DNA of 64,000 nt from Alistipes sp. (lineage in GTDB: Bacteria > Bacteroidota > Bacteroidia > Bacteroidales > Rikenellaceae): assembly GCA_017623505.1 (NCBI GenBank), contig JAGAOZ010000003.1, positions 1 through 64,000 of the forward strand. Direction: 5' to 3'. A program made the position numbers and the translations under genes. This document shows positions 1 to 62,629 of the stretch, piece by piece. The notes beneath the pieces were generated by a model. The model saw only the letters and a list, made by a program, of their open reading frames with translations. It did no database searches and had not been told where the DNA came from. Each line of letters starts with the position of its first letter. Position 1 is the first letter of the stretch.

Positions 1-342
1 CTCAAAGAGTTTTACCAATGTCTCCTGCTTTACTCCGATACCGAGATAGGCATCTTTGAGTTTGGCGGCTGTAACATAGCCATCGCTACGCATCAACTCC
101 TGATAGTGACGGTTCACATCCACACGGATTCTATCGACAGCCGCATTAATTTTCTGTGCTTCGAGGCTCTTGCCTGTGGCACGACCATTCTTTACATCCC
201 ACAGTCGGGGAGGAACATCCATCTTACAACTGAATTGCTTTACCTCGCCATCAACGGTCAGACGGCACATCAGCGGAAGATTTCCATTGGGTTTCTCGCT
301 GCCTTTCTTCACATAGAAGAGAACTTTAAATGTACTTCTCAT
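1..342 (-). CDS. Tyrosine recombinase (integrase), 5' part only
   Basis: Reading leftward from an ATG at 342 there is an open frame of 114 codons that runs off the left window edge. It begins MRSTFKVLFYVKKG and contains LPLMCRLTVDGEVKQFSC and WDVKNGRATGKS, which I recognise as the N-terminal arm DNA-binding domain and start of the core-binding domain of Bacteroidetes mobile-element tyrosine recombinases. The catalytic domain (R-H-R-Y) lies outside the window. A minus-strand TAATTTTG -7 box sits at 369-362, 20 bases upstream of the start. The gene implies an integrated element extending left. Family call is from recognition of the sequence; the element type is unknown. Confidence 0.8.
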   Translation of the reverse strand, partial: MRSTFKVLFYVKKGSEKPNGNLPLMCRLTVDGEVKQFSCKMDVPPRLWDVKNGRATGKSLEAQKINAAVDRIRVDVNRHYQELMRSDGYVTAAKLKDAYLGIGVKQETLVKLFE

Positions 343-675
343 ACTCACTAATTTTTTGTTACAAAATTACTTCTTAATGAGTTATCTGAGCGTACGCAAA
401 ATACCGCAAACCGCTGAATACCACAACCTTACCAATAAAAAGCATCCTGACCGTCTGGTAACGATATGGGAACTCAACTTGTGCTTGGTTTTGCCAAAAG
501 GTTGTTTTTCAACCCCTGCAATGCACTGAATCCCAAACCTAACTCGCAGACAATCAGGATACTTTCCTCTTATCGCAATATTTCGCTTTTTTCTTTGGTG
601 TTTATTTTAGTATACACCTACATAACCGGGTTCCTGCGTGAGTATATATATACCACAATTTAAATCGAATAAATC
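343..675. other. Intergenic region beside the integrase
   Basis: This 333-bp stretch separates the integrase start from the next gene. It holds the integrase -7 box (362-369). I see no tRNA 3' end, clear direct repeat or terminator that would mark an attachment site. An open frame at 466-663 (65 codons, hydrophobic C-terminus) has no recognisable features and is probably not a gene. Confidence 0.4.
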
Positions 676-1263
676 ATGAAAGAATGTGAAATTACACCCG
701 AAGAGATTAATTTTGAGAGTGATTATAAGTATAAGGCCGCTCTGCAATCTATGAGCAAAATTATTCACGGTCACCCTAATATGGACTTAACCTCTGAAGA
801 TGTTGATGTCAGCCTTTGGTTACCTGAAATGAATGGTGCCAATGTCACTATATTCTGTGATCGACTGTTGGAAAGGTATGATTTCGATGGTTTCATTTTT
901 CTCATAACAGCGAAGGATGACATTGACTGCTTGTCTGTTCTTAATATTGGAGACCAAAGTAGTGGGTTTGAGCTATACAAACAAGAGAGCATTGAAGACA
1001 AGAGTCTGTTAATAATGAGGGTTAATCCCAGCAAGATAAAAAAAGAATTAAAAATTCCAGATGACTGTCGGAGTGGATTCACATGGGGTAAACACCAACC
1101 CGATCGCCCAATTCCTTCACATAGTGTGCCTACCACTCGATATAATAGCAGATACATTCTGAATTTCTCTGTCAGCGGGGAATTTGATTTGGGAATATAC
1201 TATCTCCCTTATTACGGTAATGACGCTATTTGTTTGTTGAATAAGTGTTTTTGCTGTAAATAA
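676..1263 (+). CDS. Hypothetical protein, 195 aa, AT-rich
   Basis: I do not recognise this protein. It has no signal peptide or membrane segment, is rich in acidic residues in its first half, and ends with a Cys-rich tail (NKCFCCK). The predicted composition is alternating beta strands (NVTIFCDRL, GFIFLITA, YILNFSVSG). The DNA is visibly more AT-rich than the core genes to the right, and it lies next to an integrase, so horizontal acquisition is likely (inference). No ribosome binding site is visible, which is usual in Bacteroidetes. No conserved neighbour helps with function. Confidence 0.55.
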   Translation: MKECEITPEEINFESDYKYKAALQSMSKIIHGHPNMDLTSEDVDVSLWLPEMNGANVTIFCDRLLERYDFDGFIFLITAKDDIDCLSVLNIGDQSSGFELYKQESIEDKSLLIMRVNPSKIKKELKIPDDCRSGFTWGKHQPDRPIPSHSVPTTRYNSRYILNFSVSGEFDLGIYYLPYYGNDAICLLNKCFCCK

Positions 1264-1598
1264 TGGTAGTGTAACACACTGAGAAGTACATATCATTGAT
1301 GATTAACTTTAATACACTTTTAGGTAGAGGGATGGGGATAGTAGATTTTGAGGCAATTTTAGAGTAATTAGAATGTATTTCAGTATTGCCCCATGAGAGA
1401 TATACTACCCCAACGGGATGGTTAAGTATAGATAGTTATCTATCAGGGTGGGAAAAAAGGCCCAAGACTGTTCCAACGAGGAGAAGTATCAATCTCTCAA
1501 CTAGATTATTATGAGCTAATTAACACACAATATGGCAACCTACGAGTTACCCTATTGTCGTATATGTACCAAATACTTCAACCCAACTTAAATAGACT
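1264..1598. other. Intergenic region, AT-rich, no gene
   Basis: This 335-bp gap holds no convincing gene. A small perfect hairpin GATAG-TTAT-CTATC lies at 1431-1444. A 19-codon frame at about 1531 encodes a Cys-x2-Cys peptide, too short to support as a gene. No promoter of the TTTG-N20-TAnnTTTG type was found before the lipoprotein gene at 1599. Confidence 0.4.
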
Positions 1599-3422
1599 AT
1601 GAGTTTACGACACTTTTTGCTATCTTTTCTGGTGGCTTTGACGCTTACAACAGCTTGCACATCATCTGATGATATCGAAAACAACCAGCAGACCGTAAAT
1701 CCTGAGCCGGAACCGGAACCCGAACCGGAACCAGAGCCAGAAGTACCTGAATTCAAGGTTGTGCTGAACGAATTGTGTGGCAACAAGGCATACATCGGCA
1801 ACAAATTCATCGAGCTCTACAACATTGGTCCCGACGCTGCTGACATTTCCAATTGGACACTCCGCAAATACGCCTCTGACGCTACCGACGTTGAGGGCGA
1901 GTACAACGTCTGCTGGAGAGCACTTAAGGGTATGACCATTGCCGCCGAAGGCTACCTTGTGCTGGAGTCTGACCAGACCGACCCTACCAAGGGCTTCGAC
2001 GCAGGCCTTTCGGCAAAGAAGGAGCTAAAGTTTGAGTTGGTAAATGCTGAGGGCAAAGTTGTTGATAGGTTCGTGCGCGGCCATGATAAGACTCCTTTTG
2101 AGGAGAATGAACTCCCTGAGAATAAGCAGGCATCATTCTCTCGCGTACCTAACGGCTCAGGTGAGTTTGCATACGCCACCCCTACCCCTGGTGAGGCCAA
2201 TGGTGAAGCTACGGGCGAGATTGAACACGTCGCACCGGAGCCTGAACCAGAGCCAGAGCCAGAGTTCACTATGGTCCCTGAGATTCATATATTTGTCGAG
2301 GGTGGTAAAACTATTGAGAGCAAGGATGAGTATCTCAACATAGATTTATCTATCAAATCAGGTGATCAGACACTGCTTTCTGCTACCGGACGTATGAAAG
2401 GTCGAGGCAATGCCACTTGGAACTATGAGAAGAAACCTTACAAGATAAAGTTCGACGAGAAGCAGAGTCCACTGGGCTTTCCGGCCAATAAGGATTGGGT
2501 CTTGCTTGCAGAGTATTGCGACAAGTCACTGATGCGTAGCGCATATATGTTTGAACTTGCCCGCACCGTAGGCTTGCCTTACCCTCAAAACTACCGCCAC
2601 GTACAACTCTTCCTCAACAATGAGTATGTCGGTTTGTATCTGCTCACCGACCAGGTGGAGAAGAAGTCCAACCGTGTCGAGATAGAGGATGACGGTTTCC
2701 TTTTTGAGAACGACAACTACTGCTTTATGGAGCCTGTTCAGTTCCAGACAACACACCGCCAATATTGGTACACTTTCAAATATCCTGATGCCGAGGATGG
2801 CGAGATTGTCAAGGGCGACGACAACTACAACTTCATCAGTGGTTTTATGAATGATTTTGAGGCAGCATTGTATGGCGACAACTTCAAAGACCCTGAGACT
2901 GGCTACCGTAAATATATCGATGTAGAGTGCTTTGCTAAGTGGTTCTTGGTACAAGAGCTTATTGCCAACCTTGAGCCTAATCTGTACTATGTACTCCCTT
3001 CACGCAATGCTAAGTTGCAGATAGCTCCCGTATGGGATGCCGAGTGGAGTATGGGACTCGCCTATCGCCCCGATGAGAATACAGGCTGGTTACTCCCACC
3101 ACAACAGCCCGACAGATACCAGGCAATATGGAGTATATGGAAATATTTCGGTCGCTTGTTTGAAGATGACTATTTCGTAGAAGTAGTACAGGCGGAGTGG
3201 GAAAAACTCAAGCCTCTTTTACCTGCTTTCCAGAGCAAGATGTCTCAAGTCGCGGATAGCATCCGAGAGAAGCAGTACTATAACTTCAGCAAATGGCACA
3301 TACTTGGTCAATACATTAGTGTAGGACTCATCAAATTCGACACTTGGGAGGAGGAACGCAATTATGTCGAGAAATTCTTTGCCGACCGAGTTGAGTGGCT
3401 TGACAACTACATCTATTTGTAG
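1599..3422 (+). CDS. Surface lipoprotein with lamin-tail domain and CotH kinase-like domain
   Basis: This 607-aa protein has a lipoprotein signal ending LTTAC (Cys20) followed by TSSDD, an acidic pattern that in Bacteroidetes fits export to the outer surface. A Pro-Glu repeat linker (about 35-50) leads into a lamin-tail domain (about 52-205; LNELCGNK, NKFIELYN, WTLRKYASDATD). A second Pro-Glu linker precedes a CotH domain (about 228-600) with GRMKGRGNATW, KKPYKIKF, DWVLLAEYCDKSLMRS and the metal-site-like VWDAEWSMG. CotH proteins are atypical kinases, known for phosphorylating spore-coat proteins in Bacillus; the role here is unknown. It is closely related to the gene at 23651. A hairpin terminator follows at 3447. 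Confidence 0.85.
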   Translation: MSLRHFLLSFLVALTLTTACTSSDDIENNQQTVNPEPEPEPEPEPEPEVPEFKVVLNELCGNKAYIGNKFIELYNIGPDAADISNWTLRKYASDATDVEGEYNVCWRALKGMTIAAEGYLVLESDQTDPTKGFDAGLSAKKELKFELVNAEGKVVDRFVRGHDKTPFEENELPENKQASFSRVPNGSGEFAYATPTPGEANGEATGEIEHVAPEPEPEPEPEFTMVPEIHIFVEGGKTIESKDEYLNIDLSIKSGDQTLLSATGRMKGRGNATWNYEKKPYKIKFDEKQSPLGFPANKDWVLLAEYCDKSLMRSAYMFELARTVGLPYPQNYRHVQLFLNNEYVGLYLLTDQVEKKSNRVEIEDDGFLFENDNYCFMEPVQFQTTHRQYWYTFKYPDAEDGEIVKGDDNYNFISGFMNDFEAALYGDNFKDPETGYRKYIDVECFAKWFLVQELIANLEPNLYYVLPSRNAKLQIAPVWDAEWSMGLAYRPDENTGWLLPPQQPDRYQAIWSIWKYFGRLFEDDYFVEVVQAEWEKLKPLLPAFQSKMSQVADSIREKQYYNFSKWHILGQYISVGLIKFDTWEEERNYVEKFFADRVEWLDNYIYL

Positions 3423-3446
3423 GCCATCACCCTACCATTTCACCAT

Positions 3447-3475
3447 AAAATGCAGTCCTTGGGGCTGCATTTTTT
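3447..3475 (+). terminator. Rho-independent terminator of the CotH gene
   Basis: AAAATGCAG (3447-3455) and CTGCATTTT (3465-3473) form a nine-pair stem followed by further T residues, 24 bases after the stop codon. Confidence 0.8.
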
Positions 3476-3546
3476 ATGCAATGACACAAACTGTCAAAAA
3501 AGCATTATACCTTTGCACAAAAGAATAAATTACCAACCACCAATCT

Positions 3547-3954
3547 ATGTTAGCAGAATTTGCAGAGTGGCTCAACAAGCAGCCCAAAGAGAAACGAGCT
3601 CAAATCATCAATCAGTTTGTTTATGTCTATAACACCGAGCCCAATAAGGGCGAGATTGCTCTTTTGAAACGTACATTAGCTAAGAAGGAGCAGGAGATAG
3701 GTGAGCTCAAATCCTATTGCGACGAGCTTAAATATAATGCATCGCACCCCTCTCTGCAACAACTCTATGTGCAATCGTGCCATGAGCCTGTCATCGAAGA
3801 GGCGAAGAAGCGAATCACCGCAGCTTTCCTATATAAAAGTCTATGCGACATCAATGCCGCACTTCGCAAGGATAAATCCTTCTACCACAAAGAGACTATA
3901 AGGTTGGGGTTGGAGATGGCTAAACTACAGCAACAAATCTACAGTAAGGAATAG
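3547..3954 (+). CDS. Hypothetical cytoplasmic protein, coiled-coil, 135 aa
   Basis: The protein begins MLAEFAEWLNKQPKEKRAQI and continues with a heptad-like Lys/Glu/Leu-rich segment (about 35-60, LLKRTLAKKEQEIGELKSY), typical of a short coiled coil. There is no signal peptide. A -7 box TACCTTTG lies at 3508-3515, giving a short leader before the ATG. The gene converges on the aldolase gene and shares the hairpin at 4000-4028 with it. I do not recognise a family; codon usage and composition are like the core genes, so it is probably a real, lineage-specific gene. Confidence 0.6.
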   Translation: MLAEFAEWLNKQPKEKRAQIINQFVYVYNTEPNKGEIALLKRTLAKKEQEIGELKSYCDELKYNASHPSLQQLYVQSCHEPVIEEAKKRITAAFLYKSLCDINAALRKDKSFYHKETIRLGLEMAKLQQQIYSKE

Positions 3955-3999
3955 CAGATATTTGTTATATAAACTTCAAAGAAGCTCTATATGCACAAG

Positions 4000-4028
4000 A
4001 AAGGCGTTACCCATCGGGCAACGCCTTT
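4000..4028. terminator. Bidirectional terminator between convergent genes
   Basis: AAAGGCGTT (4000-4008) and AACGCCTTT (4020-4028) pair, with an inner CCC-ATC-GGG helix. It lies between the + strand gene ending at 3954 and fba ending at 4054 on the minus strand. Confidence 0.75.
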
Positions 4029-4053
4029 AACATTAACACGCTAATAAACGTAC

Positions 4054-5049
4054 TTACTCTACGCGACCTGCAGAACCCAAAACATTCTCGCACTTGTGCA
4101 TATAGAGCTTCTTCAACTCGTCACGTGCTGGGCCCAAGTACTTACGTGGGTCGAACTCTGCTGGGTTATCAACGAATACCTTACGTACCATTGCAGTCAT
4201 AGCCAAACGGCCGTCAGAATCGATATTAATCTTACATACAGCACTCTTAGCTGCCTTACGCAACTGCTCCTCTGGAATACCTACTGCATCCTTCAATGCA
4301 CCACCGTGAGTGTTGATAATCTTCACATACTCCTGTGGTACTGATGATGAGCCGTGGAGTACGATAGGGAAACCTGGCAACTGCTCCTCGATAGCCTCCA
4401 AGATGTCGAAACGCAATGGTGGTGGGAGAAGAATACCCTCCTCGTTACGAGTACACTGCTCTGGCTTGAACTTGTTAGCACCGTGTGAAGTACCGATTGA
4501 GATAGCCAATGAATCAACACCAGTCTTAGTTACGAAGTCTACAACCTCCTCTGGACGTGTGTAGTGAGCAACCTCTGAAGAAACCTCGTCCTCAACGCCT
4601 GCCAATACGCCCAACTCACCCTCAACTGTTACGTCGAACTGGTGTGCGTAATCAACAACCTGCTTTGTGAGAGCTACGTTCTCATCGTATGGGAGGTGTG
4701 AGCCGTCGATCATCACTGAAGAGAAGCCCATATCGATACAGTTCTTACACAACTCGAAAGAGTTACCGTGGTCGAGGTGCAATACGATAGGAATATTCTT
4801 ACCCAACTCCTTAGCATACTCAACAGCACCCTGTGCCATATAACGCAACAGTGTCTGGTTAGCATACTTACGAGCACCTGAAGATACCTGCAAAATAACA
4901 GGTGATGAGCACTCTACGCAAGCTGAGATAATAGCCTGCATCTGCTCCATATTGTTGAAGTTGAATGCTGGGATAGCATAACCTCCCTCGATTGCCTTCT
5001 TGAACATCTCACGGGTGTTCACAAGACCCAAATCTTTGTAAGATACCAT
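4054..5049 (-). CDS. fba: Class II fructose-bisphosphate aldolase
   Basis: The product cleaves fructose 1,6-bisphosphate to dihydroxyacetone phosphate and glyceraldehyde 3-phosphate in glycolysis and catalyses the reverse in gluconeogenesis. At 331 aa it is a typical zinc-dependent enzyme: LHLDHG supplies the catalytic Asp93 and zinc ligand His94, GTSHG supplies His189, and LHGSSS supplies His232; VEGELG (142-147) is also conserved. It stands alone: a minus-strand TATCTTTG box at 5148-5141 lies about 92 bases upstream of the ATG, and the bidirectional hairpin at 4000-4028 terminates it. No sign of degeneration. Confidence 0.95.
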   Translation of the reverse strand: MVSYKDLGLVNTREMFKKAIEGGYAIPAFNFNNMEQMQAIISACVECSSPVILQVSSGARKYANQTLLRYMAQGAVEYAKELGKNIPIVLHLDHGNSFELCKNCIDMGFSSVMIDGSHLPYDENVALTKQVVDYAHQFDVTVEGELGVLAGVEDEVSSEVAHYTRPEEVVDFVTKTGVDSLAISIGTSHGANKFKPEQCTRNEEGILLPPPLRFDILEAIEEQLPGFPIVLHGSSSVPQEYVKIINTHGGALKDAVGIPEEQLRKAAKSAVCKINIDSDGRLAMTAMVRKVFVDNPAEFDPRKYLGPARDELKKLYMHKCENVLGSAGRVE

Positions 5050-5495
5050 AATTGTTTTGTTTTATTTTTGAAAGTTAAATGTTTGTTCCTGCTCAGAAGC
5101 GTCGCCACCTCAAAACGATAGCTCCACACTTTGGACGATGCAAAGATATAAATTATTCCTCATTATTAAAATTTTTTCACTATTAATACTTTGTATTAAC
5201 GCTAAATTTCGTTTTTACCTCTACTGTCAATCACTTTCTATATCAAAAAAATCAGCAATCATACCACTCGCCACAAAAAAATCGTTATCTTTGTAATGGT
5301 GGCAAAACTTGTTTTGCATTTAATGCGATACGTCATTCCCCGACTTGTGGGGTGTGTGGAGCAAAGAAATAAATAACACGTCATTCCCCGACTCACGTAG
5401 TGAGACGATGGGAATCTACCTTTTACAAAGTGAAAAGTGAAAAGTGAAAACTGAAAACTGAAAAGTGAAAAGCGAAAACTAAAAACTCAAAGATA
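5050..5495. other. Repeat-rich intergenic region before the rhamnosidase
   Basis: This 446-bp gap holds the fba -7 box (5141-5148), a + strand TATCTTTG box at 5286-5293, a truncated and a complete copy of the 42-bp palindromic element (5331-5347 and 5379-5420), and a run of about 60 bases built from the phrases GAAAAGT and GAAAACT (5427-5490). No gene is visible. Confidence 0.6.
5379..5420 (+). repeat. 42-bp palindromic element, copy B
   Basis: It starts CGTCATTCCCCGA, ends GATGGGAATCTACC and has the inner stem CTCAC-GTA-GTGAG. Relative to copies at 28762 and 38401 (CTTGC-GTA-GCAAG) two base pairs differ and both are compensated. A 17-bp fragment of the same element (5331-5347) lies just upstream. 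Confidence 0.75.
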
Positions 5496-8177
5496 ATGAA
5501 ACGTCTATTAATTCTTCTTTGCCTTGTGTGGGCAATGCCTGCAATGGCACAAATCTCTCTATCGGAGTTAAAGGTAAACCATCTCTCCGAGCCCGAGGGC
5601 GTAGTGGATAACCAGCCCGTATTCAGTTGGATTATCTCCTCGGCAGAGCGTGGCGCAAGCCAGTCAGCATACGAAATCGTGGTCTACGAGGGCAAGGAGC
5701 GCGTATGGTCGTCAGGTAAGATCGCATCCGACAACTCTATCACTGCTCCATACGAGGGCGAGCCTCTCCGCTCAAGCACTCGTTACACTTGGCGTGTACG
5801 TGTGTGGGACAACAAGGGCAAGGCGTCGAAATGGGCAAGCAGCACATTCCTCACAGGACTCTACTCAAAGGATGAGTGGCAGGCAAAGTGGATTGAGCCA
5901 AAGTTGCAGGACGACCGTTCCCCTCTGATGCGTAAATCGTTCACACTCAAGAAAAAAGTCGCTTCGGCTGTCATGCACGTTACAGCCCACGGCCTCTATG
6001 AGGCTTCGCTCAATGGCGAGAAGGTGGGCGATGCTCTGCTCACTCCGGGCTGGACCGCCTACAACAAACGTCTGCAATATCAGACCTACGACGTTACGGA
6101 TATGCTCTCACGTGGCGAGAACGTCTTTGGTTTGGAGCTTGGCTACGGCTGGTATCATAGCCGCATGTGTTTCCACGACCGCAAGGACCGCTATATGTAC
6201 AACATCCACCAAGTGGGTGCTTTGGCTCAAATCAACATCACCTACACTGACGGCACTAAGGAGTGCATCGTAACCGACTCATCGTGGGTGGCTTCTACGG
6301 GTGAGATTCTCCACTCTACGCTCTACGACGGCGAGACAACAGATGGCCGCCTTGAGCAGCGAGGTTGGAACACCACAGCATTTGACGCATCGGCTTGGGA
6401 GGCTGTAAGTGAGGCAGAGTACTCGCTCGACGAGTTGGTCGCATCGGAGTCCGAGCAGGTCAAGGTACGCCAGAGAGTAAAGCCGGTAGCCCTTATCACC
6501 ACCCCTGCGGGCGAGAAGGTACTGGACTTCGGTCAGAACTTGGTCGGACACGAGGTTGTCAAGGTCAATGGCAAGGCGGGACAGGAGATTCTCTTCTCTC
6601 ACGCCGAGGTGCTCGACGAGAAGGGCAACTTCTACACCCTTAACCTCCGCACCGCCAAGGCTCAGCGTCGCCACACGTGTCGCGAGGGCGAGCAGACCAT
6701 CACGACAAAGTTTACGTGGTATGGCTTCCGCTATCTTAAGGTGGAGGGTATCGAGGATATCAACCTTGAGGATTTTGAGGCAGAGGTCATCTTCTCCGAC
6801 TTCCCTGAAATAGGCGACTTCACATCGTCAAATCCACTTGTCAATCAGCTCCAAAGTAATATCCGCTGGGGTATGCGTGGCAATTTTGTCGATGTACCTA
6901 CCGACTGTCCACAGCGTGATGAACGTATGGGCTGGACGGGCGACGCCAACGTATTCTTCCGCACCGCATCATTCTTGGGCGACGTGCAGAACTTCTTTAT
7001 CAAGTGGCTACGCGATTTGGCTCTCGACCAGTGGCCGGGTGGCGAGATTACCGATTTGGTACCTTGCATCCCCGGTTGGATGGGCGCAGGTCGCACAGGT
7101 TGGGCTGACGCAGGCGTGACAATCCCTTGGCAGCACTATATGGCATACGGCGACAAGCGAGTGTTGGAGAATCAATACGAGAGTATGAAGAAGTGGATTG
7201 ACTATATGTTCGGACACTGCAACAACTACCTCTGGAACACAGGCTGGCACTATGGCGACTGGCTCTTTTACAGTGCCGACAATGACTTTGGTGGCGACTC
7301 TGCTGTAACCTACCGCCCACTTATCCAGCAGTGCTTTATGGTACGCTCTGCCGAGCAGTTTGTCGAGGCAGCAAAGGTCTTGGGCAAGGATGACGTAGCA
7401 CGCCGCTACGCTCGCACCGTCGAGAAGTGTAAGGAGGCATTTTGCCGAGCATACCTCACCCCAGGTGGCTACCTTGTGTCGAACACCCAGACCGCCTACG
7501 CTTTGGCTCTTGAGTTCGATATGGTACCCGACGAGGTACGCCCCGTTTTGGCACAACGCCTCGCCGACGAGGTACGTCGCTACGGTCATATCACCACAGG
7601 CTTCCTCGGCACACCTTTCATCTGTCACGCCCTGAGCAATAACGGCTATACCGACCTGGCATACCACCTGCTCCTGCACGAGGGTTATCCCGGCTGGTTA
7701 TACTCGGTTAAGATGGGAGGCACAACCATCTGGGAGCTTTGGGACTCTATGAAGCCCGACCGCACCATTCCTGATACGGGTATGAACTCGTTCAACCACT
7801 ACTCTAAGGGTGCTATTGGCGACTGGCTCTATCGTGAGGCTGTCGGTCTAAAGGAGACCTCGGCAGGTTATAAGACCTTCATGGTTCAGCCAAAGATGGG
7901 TGGTGGCTTCAGTCATATGGCCGCCTCTACCGTAACACCTTACGGCAAGGCATCTGCCGACTGGCGTTTCGAGGGTGGCCGCTTCAAGCTGGATGTTACC
8001 GTTCCGGTGAACACCACCGCCGAGGTATATGTTCCTTCACACGCCGCCGAGATTGTCAAGTTGGACGGTGTTAAGGTCGAGGAGCATTCAGCCGTTAAGG
8101 TCTTGGGTAACGATGGCAGTTACACCCACCTGCAAGTAGGCTCCGGAGAGTACAGCTTCAGAGTATTGTGGGACTAA
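5496..8177 (+). CDS. Alpha-L-rhamnosidase, GH78, secreted
   Basis: The 893-aa protein removes terminal alpha-L-rhamnose from plant or microbial glycans. It has a signal peptide ending AMAQ (19), N-terminal beta domains (about 20-330) and the GH78 (alpha/alpha)6 catalytic domain. The motif DCPQRDERMGWTGDA contains Glu476, the presumed general acid; TTIWELWDS contains Glu747, the presumed base; SFNHYSKGAIGDWLY is a further family signature. There is no lipobox, so it is likely periplasmic. A GH43 gene follows 49 bp downstream, suggesting joint attack on a rhamnose/arabinose-containing polysaccharide. No SusC/SusD pair is in the window. Confidence 0.93.
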   Translation: MKRLLILLCLVWAMPAMAQISLSELKVNHLSEPEGVVDNQPVFSWIISSAERGASQSAYEIVVYEGKERVWSSGKIASDNSITAPYEGEPLRSSTRYTWRVRVWDNKGKASKWASSTFLTGLYSKDEWQAKWIEPKLQDDRSPLMRKSFTLKKKVASAVMHVTAHGLYEASLNGEKVGDALLTPGWTAYNKRLQYQTYDVTDMLSRGENVFGLELGYGWYHSRMCFHDRKDRYMYNIHQVGALAQINITYTDGTKECIVTDSSWVASTGEILHSTLYDGETTDGRLEQRGWNTTAFDASAWEAVSEAEYSLDELVASESEQVKVRQRVKPVALITTPAGEKVLDFGQNLVGHEVVKVNGKAGQEILFSHAEVLDEKGNFYTLNLRTAKAQRRHTCREGEQTITTKFTWYGFRYLKVEGIEDINLEDFEAEVIFSDFPEIGDFTSSNPLVNQLQSNIRWGMRGNFVDVPTDCPQRDERMGWTGDANVFFRTASFLGDVQNFFIKWLRDLALDQWPGGEITDLVPCIPGWMGAGRTGWADAGVTIPWQHYMAYGDKRVLENQYESMKKWIDYMFGHCNNYLWNTGWHYGDWLFYSADNDFGGDSAVTYRPLIQQCFMVRSAEQFVEAAKVLGKDDVARRYARTVEKCKEAFCRAYLTPGGYLVSNTQTAYALALEFDMVPDEVRPVLAQRLADEVRRYGHITTGFLGTPFICHALSNNGYTDLAYHLLLHEGYPGWLYSVKMGGTTIWELWDSMKPDRTIPDTGMNSFNHYSKGAIGDWLYREAVGLKETSAGYKTFMVQPKMGGGFSHMAASTVTPYGKASADWRFEGGRFKLDVTVPVNTTAEVYVPSHAAEIVKLDGVKVEEHSAVKVLGNDGSYTHLQVGSGEYSFRVLWD

Positions 8178-8226
8178 GAGAAGTGAAAAATTTTGAATTT
8201 TGAATTTTGAATTATAAAACTAATAT

Positions 8227-9180
8227 ATGAAACATCTTCTTCCGTTTATAGTTTTACTCGCTACGGCTTGTACCACAACCAAATCGGGCAACCCTATCTT
8301 CGAGGGCACGTATGCCGACCCCGAGGGCGTAGTCTTTGGCGACGAGTGTTGGATTTATCCAACGTGGTCGGTCAATTACGATGAGCAGCTCCACTTCGAC
8401 GCCTTCTCCTCTAAGGATTTGGTACATTGGACCAAGCACGAACGTATCATCGACTCGTCGCGCGTCAAGTGGGCACGTCGTGCTATGTGGGCACCTGCCG
8501 CTGTTGAGAAAGATGGCAAATACTACCTCTTCTTCGCAGCTAACGATGTTCACGAGGGCGAGATAGGTGGTATCGGCGTAGCTGTTGCCGACTCCCCCGC
8601 AGGACCTTTTGAGGATATGTTGGGCAAGCCACTCATCGGCGAGATTATCAACGGAGCACAGCCTATCGACCAATATGTCTTTAAGGATAAGGATGGCACC
8701 TACTATATGTACTATGGCGGTTGGGGACACTGCAACATCTGCCGCCTTGCCGACGACTTCCGCTCTGTGGTACCTTTCGACGATGGCGAGATGTTCAAGG
8801 AGGTTACCCCTGAGGGTTATATCGAGGGACCGTTTATGTTTATCCACAACGATAAATACTACTTTATGTGGTCCGAGGGCGGCTGGACAGGACCCGACTA
8901 CCGTGTCGCATACGCCATTGCTGACTCGCCTTTTGGTCCTTTCGAGCGTCGCGATGTCATTCTCCGCACCGATGAGAATGTGGCAACGGGTGCAGGCCAC
9001 CACTCTGTGGTCTACAACGAGCGTAGCGACAAGTATTATATAATCTATCATCGCCATCCATTAGACTCGACCGATGGCAACAACCGTGTAACCTGCATCG
9101 AGCAGATGCACTTCGATGCCGAGGGCAATATCCTCCCCGTAAAGCTCACCTTCGAGGGTGTCGCCGCCGATAGATTTTAG
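8227..9180 (+). CDS. GH43-family glycoside hydrolase, lipoprotein
   Basis: The 317-aa protein has a lipobox LLATAC (Cys15) not followed by acidic residues, which suggests a periplasmic rather than surface position. The five-bladed propeller fold of GH43 is indicated by the three expected acids: YADPEG (Asp31, base), IDQYVFKD (Asp148, pKa modulator) and YIEGPFMF (Glu200, acid). Repeats of the DSPAGPF/DSPFGPF type mark successive blades. GH43 members act on arabinans, xylans and galactans; the exact substrate cannot be read here. The upstream spacer contains three GAATTTT phrases. It is likely cotranscribed with the rhamnosidase. Confidence 0.85.
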   Translation: MKHLLPFIVLLATACTTTKSGNPIFEGTYADPEGVVFGDECWIYPTWSVNYDEQLHFDAFSSKDLVHWTKHERIIDSSRVKWARRAMWAPAAVEKDGKYYLFFAANDVHEGEIGGIGVAVADSPAGPFEDMLGKPLIGEIINGAQPIDQYVFKDKDGTYYMYYGGWGHCNICRLADDFRSVVPFDDGEMFKEVTPEGYIEGPFMFIHNDKYYFMWSEGGWTGPDYRVAYAIADSPFGPFERRDVILRTDENVATGAGHHSVVYNERSDKYYIIYHRHPLDSTDGNNRVTCIEQMHFDAEGNILPVKLTFEGVAADRF

Positions 9181-9213
9181 CAATACGATATTAAATCCTA
9201 AAACTTTTGCCCT

Positions 9214-57936: not shown

Positions 57937-58013
57937 ACCTAACTAAATTTTCACAAAAGTAATATATTCTTTCACATTAGCAATCCTCCCCACCATAAAA
58001 CTCCCTCTTTTTT

Positions 58014-58066
58014 CGCTTGCCGTTTGGTTGCACTTCTCTCCGTTGGAGTGCCCCTTACGGCAAGCG
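58014..58066. other. Nested inverted repeat between kinase and lnt genes
   Basis: CGCTTGCCGT (58014-58023) pairs with ACGGCAAGCG (58057-58066), and inside it GCACT (58030-58034) pairs with AGTGC (58047-58051). The T run lies on the wrong side for a minus-strand terminator. It may be a cis-acting RNA at the end of the kinase transcript or a small insertion. Confidence 0.5.
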
Positions 58067-58100
58067 ACATTAGCTTAGAGTTGGATGCTCCGCTATAAAC

Positions 58101-59873
58101 TTAGGGGAGACACACTACACGGAAACCGCGCTTGTGGTCACGGTACGACAGATTATCGGGGTTACGAGCCGAAACGCTGCAATGCCTCGCACTGTTGACC
58201 CAGCTACCGCCACGAAGAACGCGATAATATCCACTACTTGGGCCCATAGGATTAGTCTGACTATTTGATGAGTAATATCCATACCAATCACTACACCACT
58301 CCCATACATTACCACTCATATCGTATATTCCCAGCTCGTTCGGATATTTACTGCCAACGGAATGTGTTGCGCCATCACTGTTACCATCATACCACGCAAC
58401 ATCCTCAACAAAATAGCTACCGCTATACTTATTATCACTGTTTTTACCCTTATTACCTCCTCGAGCAGCAAACTCCCATTGCGCCTCAGTAGGTAAACAA
58501 TATTTCTTACCGGTAAGTCGGCTTAACTCTTCACAGAAAGCTTCTGCTTCGTGCCAATTCACATGATACATCGGATAGTTATCGCCGACGCCACGGAAGC
58601 TGCTCCAATCAGAAATTTCATTTTGTTGAGAGATTGTTGTTCCCATTATCTTCTTCCACTGAGATTGTGTTACCTCAAACTCAGCAATATAATATGAATC
58701 CAACGTCACTTGATGCGCAGGATATTCATCATCATCTGCATTGCTATCTCCCGATGATGCACCCATAGTAAACGTACCTCCCTCAACATATATCATCTTC
58801 ATATTAAGTCCATTGACATCTTCAACATACGTTTCACCGTATGGCGCAATCTGTGCATCAACCTCAGACAAATCAATATTACCAACATAATAAAGTCCAC
58901 CCACCGAGATTACCGTTGCAATAATTCCCAACATCACTATAAGCACAATCTTACCTGGACTCATGCCGGAACTTGATTCATCAGTCTGCTTTACTCCTCC
59001 GCCTGTACAACGACCACGCATTACAATACTCATAAACTCTGCAACACTCTTCGGTCTGTCCGAGCATCGCATCTGCATTGCCGCAGTAATAGCGTTACGC
59101 GAATTCTCGGAGATATGCTGTGGCATAGCTGGCAATCCATTGGTTATCACCTCAGTAGCTGCCGGCGGCTCCTTACCTACCAACATAAAGTAAAACGTTG
59201 CGCCCAAACTGTAAATATCAGTCTGTGGTGTAAACGAACTCACACCACCTCGCTGATATTGCTCAAATGGTGTAAAACCGTGGCTCACACAAATTGGCGT
59301 CGCACTCGTCTGCGAGCCTGTCTCGTCGTAATTCTTCGCCAAGCCAAAGTCTATCAATACAGCTTGATTATCACTACGACGAATCATTATATTACCCGGT
59401 TTGACATCCAAATGCAACATCTGCTGTTGATGGATATAATGCAAAGCAGCACTTACCTGACCTATCAGATTAACAGCTGCCACCTCATTCATCGCTCCGT
59501 GCTCATTGACATACTGCTCTACCGACATACCATCGACATACTCCATAACGTAATATGCAGTATTGTTCTCTAAGAACGTATCAAAAATATGAATGATATT
59601 AGGATGATTTAGACGTGATATGGTTTGCGCCTCCTTGATAAACTTATTGATAAAGCGTTGCATCAAACCACTTGCACTCTCATTATTAAGCAAGAGTGCC
59701 GATGTGTTGGAGTTGCGACGATAATAATTTTCCGGGAAAAACTCCTTAATACAAACTTTTCGGCCGGTATGCACCTGCTCAGCCAAGTAGGTTATCGCAA
59801 AACCTCCTCGACCTAACGACTTAATTACTCGATAGTTACCACTATTTAATCCGGTTCCTTCTCTTAGTTCCAT
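58101..59873 (-). CDS. Membrane Ser/Thr kinase with extracytoplasmic FGE-sulfatase-like domain
   Basis: The 590-aa protein has a eukaryotic-type kinase domain (about 12-282): Gly-rich loop LGRGGFAITYL, Lys43 (VCIKEF), HLDVKPGN with catalytic Asp156 (His-Leu-Asp instead of His-Arg-Asp) and IDFG with Asp175. A membrane helix at about 308-330 is followed by an FGE-sulfatase-like domain (about 350-590; MIYVEGGTFTMGA, EVTQSQWKKIMG, YCLPTEAQWEFAARGG, NVWEWCSDWYG, VLRGGSW). The paired Cys residues of formylglycine-generating enzyme are not both present, so a binding rather than oxidising role is likely. It starts 17 bp after the partner kinase gene; kinase domains align without gaps. Confidence 0.88.
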   Translation of the reverse strand: MELREGTGLNSGNYRVIKSLGRGGFAITYLAEQVHTGRKVCIKEFFPENYYRRNSNTSALLLNNESASGLMQRFINKFIKEAQTISRLNHPNIIHIFDTFLENNTAYYVMEYVDGMSVEQYVNEHGAMNEVAAVNLIGQVSAALHYIHQQQMLHLDVKPGNIMIRRSDNQAVLIDFGLAKNYDETGSQTSATPICVSHGFTPFEQYQRGGVSSFTPQTDIYSLGATFYFMLVGKEPPAATEVITNGLPAMPQHISENSRNAITAAMQMRCSDRPKSVAEFMSIVMRGRCTGGGVKQTDESSSGMSPGKIVLIVMLGIIATVISVGGLYYVGNIDLSEVDAQIAPYGETYVEDVNGLNMKMIYVEGGTFTMGASSGDSNADDDEYPAHQVTLDSYYIAEFEVTQSQWKKIMGTTISQQNEISDWSSFRGVGDNYPMYHVNWHEAEAFCEELSRLTGKKYCLPTEAQWEFAARGGNKGKNSDNKYSGSYFVEDVAWYDGNSDGATHSVGSKYPNELGIYDMSGNVWEWCSDWYGYYSSNSQTNPMGPSSGYYRVLRGGSWVNSARHCSVSARNPDNLSYRDHKRGFRVVCLP

Positions 59874-59890
59874 ATTATCTCTTCTTTCAT

Positions 59891-61552
59891 CTATCGCTTA
59901 TCCCTAACAGGACGTATCGAACGACCCATATGAAATGGAGTTGTAGTAACAGCATATATAGGTTTATCGTCTTTAGTGGTAAACCACAATAAATATGCTA
60001 ATGTATCAACGCTATGGTTTGTTCCACTCCAATAGCCAGCGCGCCCATTTTTTCTGGACTCAGGAATTGTTTTGGTTATATTTTTACCATTTGCACCACC
60101 ACATATAGGAAGAAATATGGATTTACCATTACGTGATACTACATATCCATTCATCCCCTTCCTGTTAGTTCTTTCCCATGTGCATTTATTGACGAGTTCC
60201 TCTAACTCCTCCTTTGTTGGCATACGCCAACCATCACCCCAGTTTGCTGTTGCAGCATCATACTTGCTATTACCGGATATATCTCCCTCGGGTTTTGTAT
60301 AATCTTTCATGTATTCATCCTTGGAAAAAGTTTGTCCCCAAGCATAAAAATTTCCACTTTCCCATTCATTATCTGCTCCAACATTACAAGTAGCCCAATT
60401 AACACTTAGACCCAAATCCACCTCACCATGTATTGCAATTGGCTCATTGGTCATAATACTTTGATAAGTGCTATTGCTATCATCGCGACCGATAGACACA
60501 GCCACCAGCACAATCATCACAATCCACACTAAAGTCACAGCTACTCCCAACCATATAATCCAAGACTTGCGCGGCTTCGTGCCATCTATCTCTTCCGAAA
60601 TAGGATCGTAATCTTGAGGTCCTTGTGGCGGCTTCGGCGGACGTGGCGACTTCGGCGGACGTGGAGTCCGTGGAGGATTATCCTCAACCATACCGCTTTG
60701 CAATATAGTTAAAAACGCCTCAATGCTATGCGGACGTTCTTCTCGACGAAAACGCATCGCAGCTGCAACGGCCCGGCGAGTACCATTAGAGATATTAGAT
60801 GGCAATGCCGGCAACTCGCTATCAATCAGCTCCAAAGCCTGTGGCGGAACTTTTCCGGTCAGCATATTATAGAGCGTGGCACCCAAAGCATAGATATCTG
60901 TTTGGGGAGAGAAGACCCTCATCGCTCCAGAGGTATATTGTTCGTATGGCGCAAAGCCGTGACTCACTGCTGAATATGTCGAGCTGAGCGGATTACCATC
61001 ATCATCGTAACCCTTTGAGATTCCAAAGTCAATCAATATTGCACGATTATCACTTCGGCGCAACATGATATTTCCGGGCTTGACATCAAGATGCAGAATA
61101 TGATTTTGATGCACATGATGTAAAGCGCCTGCAACCTGACTGATATAATAACGAGAATGGTCCTCACTCATCGCGCCATAGCGAGTTATAGCATCAGCAA
61201 GTGACATACCGTCAATATACTCCATCACGTAGTAAACAGTATTATTCTCCTCGAAAGTATCGTAGATGTGTACAATATTCGGATGCCTCATTCGGCTGAT
61301 AATTCGGGCCTCATTTATGAACTTGCGCTTAAAACGCTCCATGCGATTTGCAGCATCTGGTCTACTGAGAATCAAATCGTTAGAATTGACACGACGATAA
61401 TAAAATTCCTCCGGGAAGAACTCCTTGACACAAACCTGCATATTACTTCGTGCCTGGATAGCCAAATAGGTAATACCGAATCCACCTCGGCCAAGCTTTG
61501 AGAGTATTGTATACTCGCCTCTTTTCAGATAAGTTCCACGACGTAATTCCAT
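59891..61552 (-). CDS. Membrane Ser/Thr kinase with Fibrobacter-succinogenes-type paralogous domain
   Basis: The 553-aa protein (start at 61552; the earlier in-frame ATG at 61585 lies inside the -7 box) has the same kinase layout as its neighbour: LGRGGFGITYL, Lys43, HLDVKPGN (Asp156), IDFG (Asp175). A Pro-rich linker (about 293-313) and membrane helix (about 331-354) lead to a C-terminal domain (about 375-550) with LGLSVNWATCNVGA, GNFYAWGQT, GDGWRMPTKEELEEL and RSIRPV, the signature of the Fibrobacter succinogenes major paralogous domain. It is the first gene of a two-kinase unit. The ligand and protein substrates are unknown. Confidence 0.88.
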   Translation of the reverse strand: MELRRGTYLKRGEYTILSKLGRGGFGITYLAIQARSNMQVCVKEFFPEEFYYRRVNSNDLILSRPDAANRMERFKRKFINEARIISRMRHPNIVHIYDTFEENNTVYYVMEYIDGMSLADAITRYGAMSEDHSRYYISQVAGALHHVHQNHILHLDVKPGNIMLRRSDNRAILIDFGISKGYDDDGNPLSSTYSAVSHGFAPYEQYTSGAMRVFSPQTDIYALGATLYNMLTGKVPPQALELIDSELPALPSNISNGTRRAVAAAMRFRREERPHSIEAFLTILQSGMVEDNPPRTPRPPKSPRPPKPPQGPQDYDPISEEIDGTKPRKSWIIWLGVAVTLVWIVMIVLVAVSIGRDDSNSTYQSIMTNEPIAIHGEVDLGLSVNWATCNVGADNEWESGNFYAWGQTFSKDEYMKDYTKPEGDISGNSKYDAATANWGDGWRMPTKEELEELVNKCTWERTNRKGMNGYVVSRNGKSIFLPICGGANGKNITKTIPESRKNGRAGYWSGTNHSVDTLAYLLWFTTKDDKPIYAVTTTPFHMGRSIRPVRDKR

Positions 61553-61582
61553 AGGGTTAGAGTAGTCATCAGATAATTGAAA

Positions 61583-61614
61583 CAAAAATAATAATTTTTG
61601 TACTATTTACCAAA
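61583..61614 (-). promoter_or_regulatory. Promoter of the two-kinase operon
   Basis: On the minus strand TTTG (61614-61611), a 20-base spacer and TATTTTTG (61590-61583). The transcript would start near 61576, which fixes the kinase start at 61552. Confidence 0.8.
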
Positions 61615-61630
61615 TCTCAACCCATTTATC

Positions 61631-62629
61631 CTAAAAATACTCTTCTCGGTAGTGGTATTCGTTGCGTAAAAGCTCGAAATCGTTCGGGTTTTGGCGTAAA
61701 TCGTTCGTTATTTTGTGCAAATCGCACCTCAATTTTATCGAATCGCACATCCGCTGCCACTCAATATTCTGACGCTCCACCCGACTCACATTTTCGGGAT
61801 ACCACCCAACCAAAGGCAACGAAAATTCCTCCGCAACAGCCGCCACAACCATTGCCGTCGCGTTGGCTTTTCCTTGCGCCGAGTAGCCGGCAATATGAGG
61901 GGTTGCAACAACCGCTTTATGTAGCAACTTTTCGTCGATATTTGGCTCATTTTCCCACACATCAATAAAGAGTGGTCTATCGGTAGCAAGTAAAGCATCG
62001 GTAGCAGCGACTTCGCCACGCGAAGCGTTGATAAGCACCGCATCAGAACGCATCAGAGAGAGCGTTTCGTGGTTAATCATGTGGTAAGTCGTAGCATCCA
62101 GCGGAGTATGAAGCGTCACAATATCAGATTGTTGCAGCACCTGCTCAAGTGGCAGAAAGTCACCACCCTCACGTTGCTGTCGCGGCGGGTCACATCGCAA
62201 CACACGGAAGCCCCACGCGCGAGTATATCGCTCCACAAGCGAACCCACATTTCCAACTCCTACTATGCCGAGAGTTGTCTTTTCAGGCAACAAACCGCCG
62301 GTTTCTGACAACATGGCGAGCGCAGCCGACACCCATTGCAGCACACCCGCAGCATTGCAGCCTGCAGCGGTTACCACCTTGATATTGTGAGCATTACACC
62401 ACTCAAAGTCGATGTGGTCAAAACCTATCGTCGCGGTAGCAATCAGTCGCACACGCGAACCCTCAAGCAAAGAGGCATCACATCGGGTACGAGTACGAAT
62501 AATCAGCGCATCGGCATCTCGCACATCTGCGGGGGTGAAATCCTTTCCGGGGAGATATACGACCTCTCCATAAGGCTCTAAAACGCCTGATATATAAGGG
62601 ATTGCAGAATCAATAACAAACTTCAGCAT
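61631..62629 (-). CDS. pdxB: 4-phosphoerythronate dehydrogenase
   Basis: The 332-aa NAD-dependent enzyme works in pyridoxal 5'-phosphate synthesis (DXP-dependent route, which also uses the Dxs product). It has FVIDSAIPYISGVLEPYGEV and DFTPADVRDADALIIRTRT at the N-terminus, the Rossmann motif GIVGVGNVGS, NASRGE (catalytic Arg), DVWENEPN (Glu) and TPHIAGYS (His), a PdxB-specific form of the D-hydroxyacid dehydrogenase fold. The C-terminus is shorter than in E. coli (378 aa). A minus-strand TATCTTTG box at 62659-62652 precedes it. Confidence 0.92.
   Translation of the reverse strand: MLKFVIDSAIPYISGVLEPYGEVVYLPGKDFTPADVRDADALIIRTRTRCDASLLEGSRVRLIATATIGFDHIDFEWCNAHNIKVVTAAGCNAAGVLQWVSAALAMLSETGGLLPEKTTLGIVGVGNVGSLVERYTRAWGFRVLRCDPPRQQREGGDFLPLEQVLQQSDIVTLHTPLDATTYHMINHETLSLMRSDAVLINASRGEVAATDALLATDRPLFIDVWENEPNIDEKLLHKAVVATPHIAGYSAQGKANATAMVVAAVAEEFSLPLVGWYPENVSRVERQNIEWQRMCDSIKLRCDLHKITNDLRQNPNDFELLRNEYHYREEYF

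Follow-up and report, generated by a model that had tools for sequence, protein, structure and literature searches.

A tandem pair of putative receptor kinases in an Alistipes genome: an exchanged outer domain and its relation to a target of a diversity-generating retroelement

Kinase-plus-lectin proteins under the control of diversity-generating retroelements (DGRs) are already known in cyanobacteria: PMC7517822 describes DGR variable proteins in which a Ser/Thr kinase forms the N-terminal part and a C-type-lectin domain the C-terminal one; they occur as dispersed paralogues, and their lectin module is described as grafted. Here we analyse two adjoining genes, termed K1 and K2, that encode kinases with different C-terminal outer domains in Alistipes sp. 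(assembly GCA_017623505.1). They lie in a stretch of 64,000 nucleotides (contig JAGAOZ010000003.1, positions 1 to 64,000, forward strand), called the window below, to which positions refer unless another stretch is named. An initial annotation had read the pair as the product of duplication followed by exchange of the outer domains. Taken together, the data make it likely that K1 and K2 are duplicated receptor kinases, that K1 bears an exchanged FGE cassette of DGR-related ancestry and is now an orphan, and that the two receptors would act on shared substrates.

Kinase halves, membrane helices and family of K1 and K2

The two genes and their domains are as follows:
59891..61552, minus strand: K2 gene (553 aa, from ATG), with kinase, transmembrane (TM) helix and Lcl_C/FISUMP-type outer domain
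60692..61552, minus strand: K2 kinase domain, aa 1-287, with K43, HLD156 and DFG175 (Pfam, alignment)
60503..60559, minus strand: K2 predicted TM helix, aa 332-350 (hydropathy only)
59894..60502, minus strand: K2 outer domain, aa 351-553, predicted C-type-lectin-like fold of Lcl_C type
58101..59873, minus strand: K1 gene (590 aa), with kinase, TM helix and FGE-sulfatase-type outer domain
59016..59873, minus strand: K1 kinase domain, aa 1-286, with K43, HLD156 and DFG175; third Gly of the Gly-rich loop is Ala (Pfam, alignment, model)
58893..58949, minus strand: K1 predicted TM helix, aa 309-327 (hydropathy; helix 309-324 in a low-confidence model)
58104..58808, minus strand: K1 outer FGE domain, codon 356 to stop, with DNA homology to a free-standing gene

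Both proteins match Pfam Pkinase (E 7e-41 and 7e-42) and present the catalytic Lys, the Asp of the HxD motif, the DFG Asp and the kinase fold of Hanks-type Ser/Thr kinases, with Lys43, Asp156 and Asp175 at the same positions in the two, as the initial annotation had pointed out. Aligned over 287 aa, the kinase halves of K1 and K2 need no gaps and are 55% identical, well above chance level (E 4e-116). Structure prediction, proposed as a check by that annotation, gave a K1 model with a kinase fold matching PpkA and PknB in Foldseek, and a lectin-like fold for the outer domain of K2. In both proteins the Arg of RD-type kinases before the catalytic Asp is replaced (HLD for HRD). The profile for PASTA kinases (PknB/Stk1, NF033483) gave 163.9 and 155.1 bits against a cut-off of 450, with the best stretch inside the kinase part. 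The Gly-rich loop of K1 reads GRGGFA, and residue 26 (59796-59798, minus strand) is the sole Ala at that place among 107 motif-matched family members. Simple hydropathy predicted one hydrophobic helix after the kinase in each protein (K1 309-327, K2 332-350), in agreement with the annotation. Since a single inner-membrane helix would follow a cytoplasmic kinase, the outer domains should lie in the periplasm and not on the cell surface.

Relatives were collected by scanning a collection of genome contigs with six aligned kinase domains; of the 541 matching stretches, 487 encode a relative, and the analysis continued with the best 80 (78 loci). From the 124 kinase open reading frames (ORFs) found, those of L034-L036 (same genome as L047, L056 and L092) and hits below 200 bits were dropped, leaving 114. 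The 111 with kinase domains of at least 270 residues, which came from the fetched loci, the window and a further locus of the same genome on contig C22, entered a quick tree with some long branches, and 42 of these rows, chosen by hand, entered a more careful one. Of the G-coded kinase loci, only the window, the C22 kinase of the same genome and the L034-L039 group entered the trees. K1 and K2 are sisters in both trees (SH-aLRT 94 with 111 rows; 99/95 with 42 rows), which, together with the identity of their kinase halves, supports the proposed origin by duplication.

The motif before the catalytic Asp is HLD in 105 of the 111 members, HFD in 4, HYD in 1 and HRD in 1. The HLD that had been singled out as a notable trait of the pair is instead family-wide, and a peculiarity of K1 and K2 was ruled out; judged by its residues, the motif marks a non-RD kinase family. 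In non-RD kinases activation need not rely on phosphorylation of the activation loop. A helix beyond the kinase was predicted in 92/111 members. The kept relatives come from Bacteroidales-type metagenome-assembled genomes (Rikenellaceae, Alistipes, Bacteroidaceae, Prevotellaceae and others), largely from animal gut, with Bacteroides bouchesdurhonensis (loci L091 and L094) as the one cultivated species among them. At a threshold of 1e-60 a family match was found in 17 of 393 evenly drawn genomes of the order, the window's own counted. The family is patchy within the genus as well: among 36 other genomes searched, copies with at least 50% identity were present only in G011, and two further same-genus genomes outside those 36 hold copies, G433 (same contigs as G454; locus L041) and G432 (SIG174).

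Exchange of outer domains

The outer part of K1 matches the FGE-sulfatase profile PF03781 with 180.3 bits against a cut-off of 23.3 (E 6.9e-53), which bears out the domain named in the initial annotation. This domain resembles the product of a gene on contig C9 of the same genome, a free-standing protein that appears secreted from its N-terminus as judged by eye, with 74% DNA identity over 709 nt and 70% identity at the protein level. The DNA match runs from codon 356, at the edge of the domain, as far as the stop codon. Across 61 genomes of the genus, the own one included, the next protein matches come from G030, G439 and G448 (66, 64 and 63%), none with a kinase domain, and the kinase-borne FGE domains of G433 and G011 are 59 and 54% identical to that of K1. 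A tree of 41 FGE cores, built without the variable ends, places K1 and the C9 protein as sisters (99/97). The 12 kinase-borne domains in it (including L189 and L207) need 6 changes, against a shuffled mean of 10.5 with 1/500 as low, and at least 4 of these are forced by starred branches. Moreover, the 12 form a single group in 0/200 bootstrap trees.

Tree and alignments thus support the view that the outer domain of K1 was exchanged, as a module shared with free-standing FGE proteins. Transfer from a donor to the K1 kinase would be the simpler reading because the neighbours of K1 in the FGE tree, which leaves the direction unfixed, are mostly not kinases. That the outer domains of the pair diverged without any exchange is improbable and is contradicted for K1. 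It would fit with both outer domains probably sharing the lectin superfold and with the 55% kinase identity, which speaks for an old duplication; against it, the identities of the K1 domain to the C9 protein and to the kinase-less proteins of three same-genus genomes exceed that between the kinase halves of K1 and K2, and the kinase-borne FGE domains do not form one group. The exchange claimed for the pair is accordingly upheld in the case of K1.

Among solved structures the closest to the K1 outer domain is TvpA (PDB 2Y3C); the outer half of the K1 model has low confidence (pLDDT <50 at residues 473-582). When the active-site region of an FGE (6muj, GSYLCHDSYC) is aligned with K1 (GSWVNSARHC), the first Cys of the pair is Asn and the second is kept. 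This Cys pair is catalytic in FGE. A working FGE enzyme was ruled out for the K1 outer domain on the basis of this substitution.

The outer domain of K2, which had been assigned to a Fibrobacter-succinogenes type (FISUMP), falls below the cut-offs of both Lcl_C (PF07603; E 1.4e-4, 22.5 bits against 34.9) and TIGR02145 (E 1.4e-3, 19.4 bits against 41.65), so the profiles do not carry the assignment; support for it comes from the alignment of 17 relatives at 27-44% identity and from the predicted fold, which is that of the C-type-lectin superfold. Six relatives of this type likewise match Lcl_C under the cut-off. A Foldseek search with the K2 outer domain returned nothing useful, and the best hit of a PDB profile search with its alignment had an E of 0.16. 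According to the predicted folds, K1 and K2 outer domains most likely share the C-type-lectin superfold, the swap being one between two lectin-fold types. The nearest relatives of K2 in its own genome are proteins of contig C8 (40-46%). There, a stretch (L156, G000:C8:57000-67000) encodes at 2137-3633 and 7311-8639 secreted-looking proteins with Lcl_C/FISUMP-like domains; one of them has two such domains and one is, by eye, joined to leucine-rich repeats. A possible role of these C8 proteins is that of a pool for K2-type outer domains.

To place the pair in its family, C-terminal labels were assigned to the 111 members by local profiles built from the family itself, giving 12 FGE, 21 FISUMP-like, 10 weakly FISUMP-like and 68 other. 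On the kinase tree the FGE label needs 10 changes for 12 rows (shuffled mean 11.6; 30/500 as low), 6 of them forced by well-supported branches, the FISUMP label 14 changes for 21 rows (shuffled mean 19.4; 0/500), 9 of them forced, and all labels together 29 changes (shuffled mean 40.1; 0/200). The outer-domain labels are somewhat clustered yet change very often across the kinase tree, which does not agree with homologues whose outer domains are never exchanged, an outcome that the initial annotation had named as contrary to its reading. In the 42-row tree FGE appears four times, in four places. Pfam searches on ten chosen C-termini found LRR_5, Sel1, PEGA with TonB_C, MORN, WG repeats, Big_2 and Lcl_C, and none for one of them. 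The proposed survey of Bacteroidales for adjacent kinases gave two or more family kinases in 22 of 79 loci, with 32 adjoining pairs, a lower bound as flanks were at most 6 kb for most loci. In several pairs the kinases are 84-86% identical and the C-termini align at only 25-42% over 24-112 residues; in the pairs of L066 and L110 the C-termini stayed similar. The pair in the window is one case of a recurrent pattern.

The genome of the window holds a second kinase pair (L005, G000:C22:12000-24000, positions 1-7681), composed of a 286-aa HLD kinase and a kinase-TM-FGE protein with HRD. FHA-like and PP2C-like genes, identified by inspection, surround this pair; a phosphatase and readers of phosphorylation could come from this cluster.

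DGR targeting of a same-genus homologue and the 3' end of K1

A DGR adjoins a kinase of this family in a same-genus genome (L216, G454:C22:1-8000, the same contig as G433:C22, with the same kinase as L041). DGR and target span 452-3996 of that stretch:
452-579: template repeat (TR)
586-1593: reverse transcriptase (RT)
1590-2039: HRDC accessory gene
2143-3996, minus strand: kinase-TM-FGE target of this family

The profiles RVT_1 and HRDC were matched. Comparison of TR and variable region (VR) over 128 positions shows 20 mismatches, of which 19 fall on TR adenines and one lies after the stop codon. At the level of sequence, this shows the L216/L041 kinase to be the target of a complete DGR with RT, HRDC accessory and TR. 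The same cassette is present in a second same-genus genome (L258), with an FGE target without kinase domain and 12/14 mismatches at adenines. Among the 78 kinase loci and the window, an RT like three DGR RTs lies within the fetched stretch only in L041.

Codon usage at the ends of other family members was also analysed, with 13 of 17 listed kinases (L052, L073, L074 and L076 left out), 10 of them from SIG174. In their last 33 codons the entropy is 26.3/22.0/9.7 at codon positions 1/2/3, versus 24.7/18.6/57.5 in 60 codons of the kinase domain. Third bases frozen where residues vary are, as read from these codons, the mark of adenine-directed mutation of AAC/AAT codons. For FISUMP-type kinase ends the corresponding entropies are 28.0/28.2/33.5, an ambiguous pattern obtained from 10 of 16 anchorable ends, five being without anchor. 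A pattern for the variable end (up to 2 mismatches) found 16, 4, 3, 3, 3 and 7 matches in six genomes and 0 in the genome of the window; the reversed control pattern gave one match each in two of the six. A kinase motif was visible in the open frame as fetched in 11 of 30 variable-end loci, the others being short or cut.

SIG174 (G453; G432; same genus) has ten paralogous kinases (L042, L046, L050, L053, L057-L059, L065, L066 and L068) whose last ~33 codons are DGR-like variable regions with xxC codons; 9/10 end in VRAVSAF or VRAVSDF. No DGR RT or TR for these variable kinases was recognised in this genome, which appears 98% complete. Its single RT (G453) was rejected as their source, as the variable ends match only 18-27 nt around it (E 0.08 or worse).

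The corresponding part of K1 is the following:
58104..58214, minus strand: K1 C-terminal segment RGGSW...GFRVVCLP, 37 codons, with in-register homology to DGR VR/TR of two same-genus genomes

This end is in register with the TR of L216 (by count) and that of L258 (by translation). Compared with the TR of L216, which is from another species, K1 differs at 14/28 first and second positions of AAY codons and at 6/38 positions elsewhere (p 0.006), and 13 of the 14 K1 codons at Asn sites of the TR end in C or T, as do 54% of all K1 codons (p 0.0025). Differences between K1 and the C9 gene at codon positions 1/2/3 amount to 37/36/88 in the body (202 codons) and 12/10/10 in the end (37 codons; p 0.020 for positions 1+2 versus 3). 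In eight chosen FGE ends from the own and same-genus genomes, which made up a first codon table (a second held 11 kinase ends), five hypervariable codons end in C in 8/8. Together these comparisons suggest the footprint of a DGR variable region in the K1 end, with some qualifications: third positions differ too between K1 and the TR of L216 (12/33), the third-position entropy of the eight FGE ends is not low over the whole stretch, and the codon tests on K1 agree with one another but depend also on residue preferences of surface loops.

A search of the 93.7% complete assembly with the K1 3' end gave K1 and C9 as sole matches and no FGE-type TR. The window showed no RT similar to three DGR RTs, and no RT besides one on contig C1 was found in its genome. 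The latter belongs to a prophage-type DGR (L143, G000:C1:88000-102000, positions 6344-9212) with an RT, a bAvd-like accessory, one TR and two VRs, and was ruled out as rewriting K1, as its TR is of another type and its VRs lie in two small ORFs, ending ARAVSAF-like. Because no matching TR was found in the genome and its one RT found is part of a prophage-type DGR, K1 is best read, from these sequences, as an orphan variable receptor by descent and not as a DGR target. There is a small chance that K1 is still an active target, its 3' end being rewritten with the help of a TR and an RT that the assembly misses or that other strains carry. The in-register homology to the two TRs, the DGR targeting of a same-genus kinase and the incompleteness of the assembly would all suit this; the assembly without FGE-type TR or second RT speaks against it, as do the differences between K1 and C9 at third positions and outside AAY codons.

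Probable insertion of the pair, proposed mechanism and known systems

K2 is transcribed first and K1 second, with the 17-bp gap given in the initial annotation, and the single promoter proposed there finds a counterpart in one motif just 5' of K2:
61583..61614, minus strand: Bacteroides-type promoter motif upstream of K2, TTTG-N20-TATTTTTG

The motif, which we take to be the Bacteroides-type promoter consensus, has 7 matches in the window versus 0.75 expected by shuffles, one of them directly upstream of K2. An in-frame TTG lies at 61585, upstream of the K2 ATG. A strong hairpin 3' of the K1 stop (58013-58067, minus strand; z -5.8, 11-bp outer stem, without a T run) might act as a terminator or be what is left of a DGR target-site hairpin.

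By inspection, the pair has pdxB upstream (61631-62629, with a Pfam match to 2-hydroxyacid dehydrogenases) and lnt and folC downstream; its GC content is 0.44, against 0.48 for the window. Of 57 other genomes of the genus with a pdxB match, 20 loci were fetched (18 with ~7 kb downstream, two cut by contig ends), and a family kinase was found beside pdxB in 0/20, so that conservation of the pair in this place was ruled out. In 3 same-genus loci pdxB, lnt and folC follow one another directly, and the tblastn matches of the first two lie ~94-138 nt apart. Because of these two observations, the K1-K2 pair at pdxB/lnt is best read as an insertion. The same data bear on an alternative in which the outer domains are structural remnants and both kinases work constitutively or in a housekeeping role, such as one in the envelope. 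We regard such pseudo-receptors as very unlikely, although the location between pdxB and lnt, the patchy distribution and the lack of a known ligand would favour them: the loci without kinases point to an insertion and not to a functional link, and the outer domains recur across the family.

We propose the following scheme for the insertion and diversification of K1 and K2. Members of the family would have a non-RD (HLD) Hanks kinase as their cytoplasmic N-terminal part, cross the inner membrane by one helix and end in an outer domain in the periplasm. One such receptor gene would have been inserted between pdxB and lnt and then duplicated; at least K1 would have taken its outer domain as a cassette from a pool of free-standing C-type-lectin-fold (FGE) proteins, and K2 would bear a lectin-fold domain of Lcl_C/FISUMP type. 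The K1 module may descend from TvpA-like variable domains that DGRs rewrite, and loss of the DGR would have left K1 with a frozen binding surface. Each outer domain might bind its own periplasmic ligand and thereby change receptor pairing, and such dimer control would switch on or off two near-equivalent kinases acting on shared cytoplasmic substrates. More broadly, and only tentatively, gut Bacteroidales may keep a repertoire of TM receptor kinases whose lectin-fold sensors are swapped and DGR-hypermutated over one conserved kinase output, the window pair being a small DGR-less branch of it.

Modular receptor kinases are joined here with machinery that rewrites the binding face of receptors, a combination rarely seen. 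With such a system one can ask by experiment whether bacteria adjust their signalling inputs through targeted hypermutation while the output stays constant. A pair of adjoining receptors whose kinases are near-equal and whose sensors differ amounts to a natural domain-swap experiment, and a membrane-spanning form in gut bacteria suggests that substances reaching the periplasm are sensed.

For DGR-diversified kinases in Bacteroidales, no paper was found among the matches listed, judged by titles and abstract starts and with subscription journals thinly covered. As far as the literature searched shows, a membrane-spanning Bacteroidales form with FGE and Lcl_C modules that is targeted by a same-genus DGR is new. 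K1 and K2 resemble PknB/StkP-type TM kinases in that one helix links a cytoplasmic Hanks kinase to an outer sensor at the C-terminus, and differ from them in lacking PASTA repeats, in their lectin-fold outer domains and in HLD for HRD. The C-terminal domain of Legionella Lcl (PDB 8q4e) is 19% identical to the K2 outer domain over 100 aligned residues, again with Pfam Lcl_C below its cut-off. TvpA, the nearest solved structure to the K1 outer domain, is a DGR variable protein of Treponema denticola (PDB 2Y3C; PMC4891356), whose DGR is like the same-genus DGRs in its HRDC accessory gene and FGE-type target; that paper describes the targets as FGE-sulfatase proteins and does not use the word kinase in its text, whereas K1 is kinase-linked and an orphan. 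Closest in design is the cyanobacterial system, which like L216 has a Hanks kinase and a C-terminal C-type-lectin module rewritten by a DGR. According to PMC7517822, most of its variable proteins are predicted to be cytosolic, while 4 DGR-linked and 9 remote proteins have membrane or signal segments; here, by contrast, a helix is predicted in most members. The present system also differs in its Bacteroidales host, in the use of both FGE and Lcl_C types, and in K1, for which no TR was found in its own genome.

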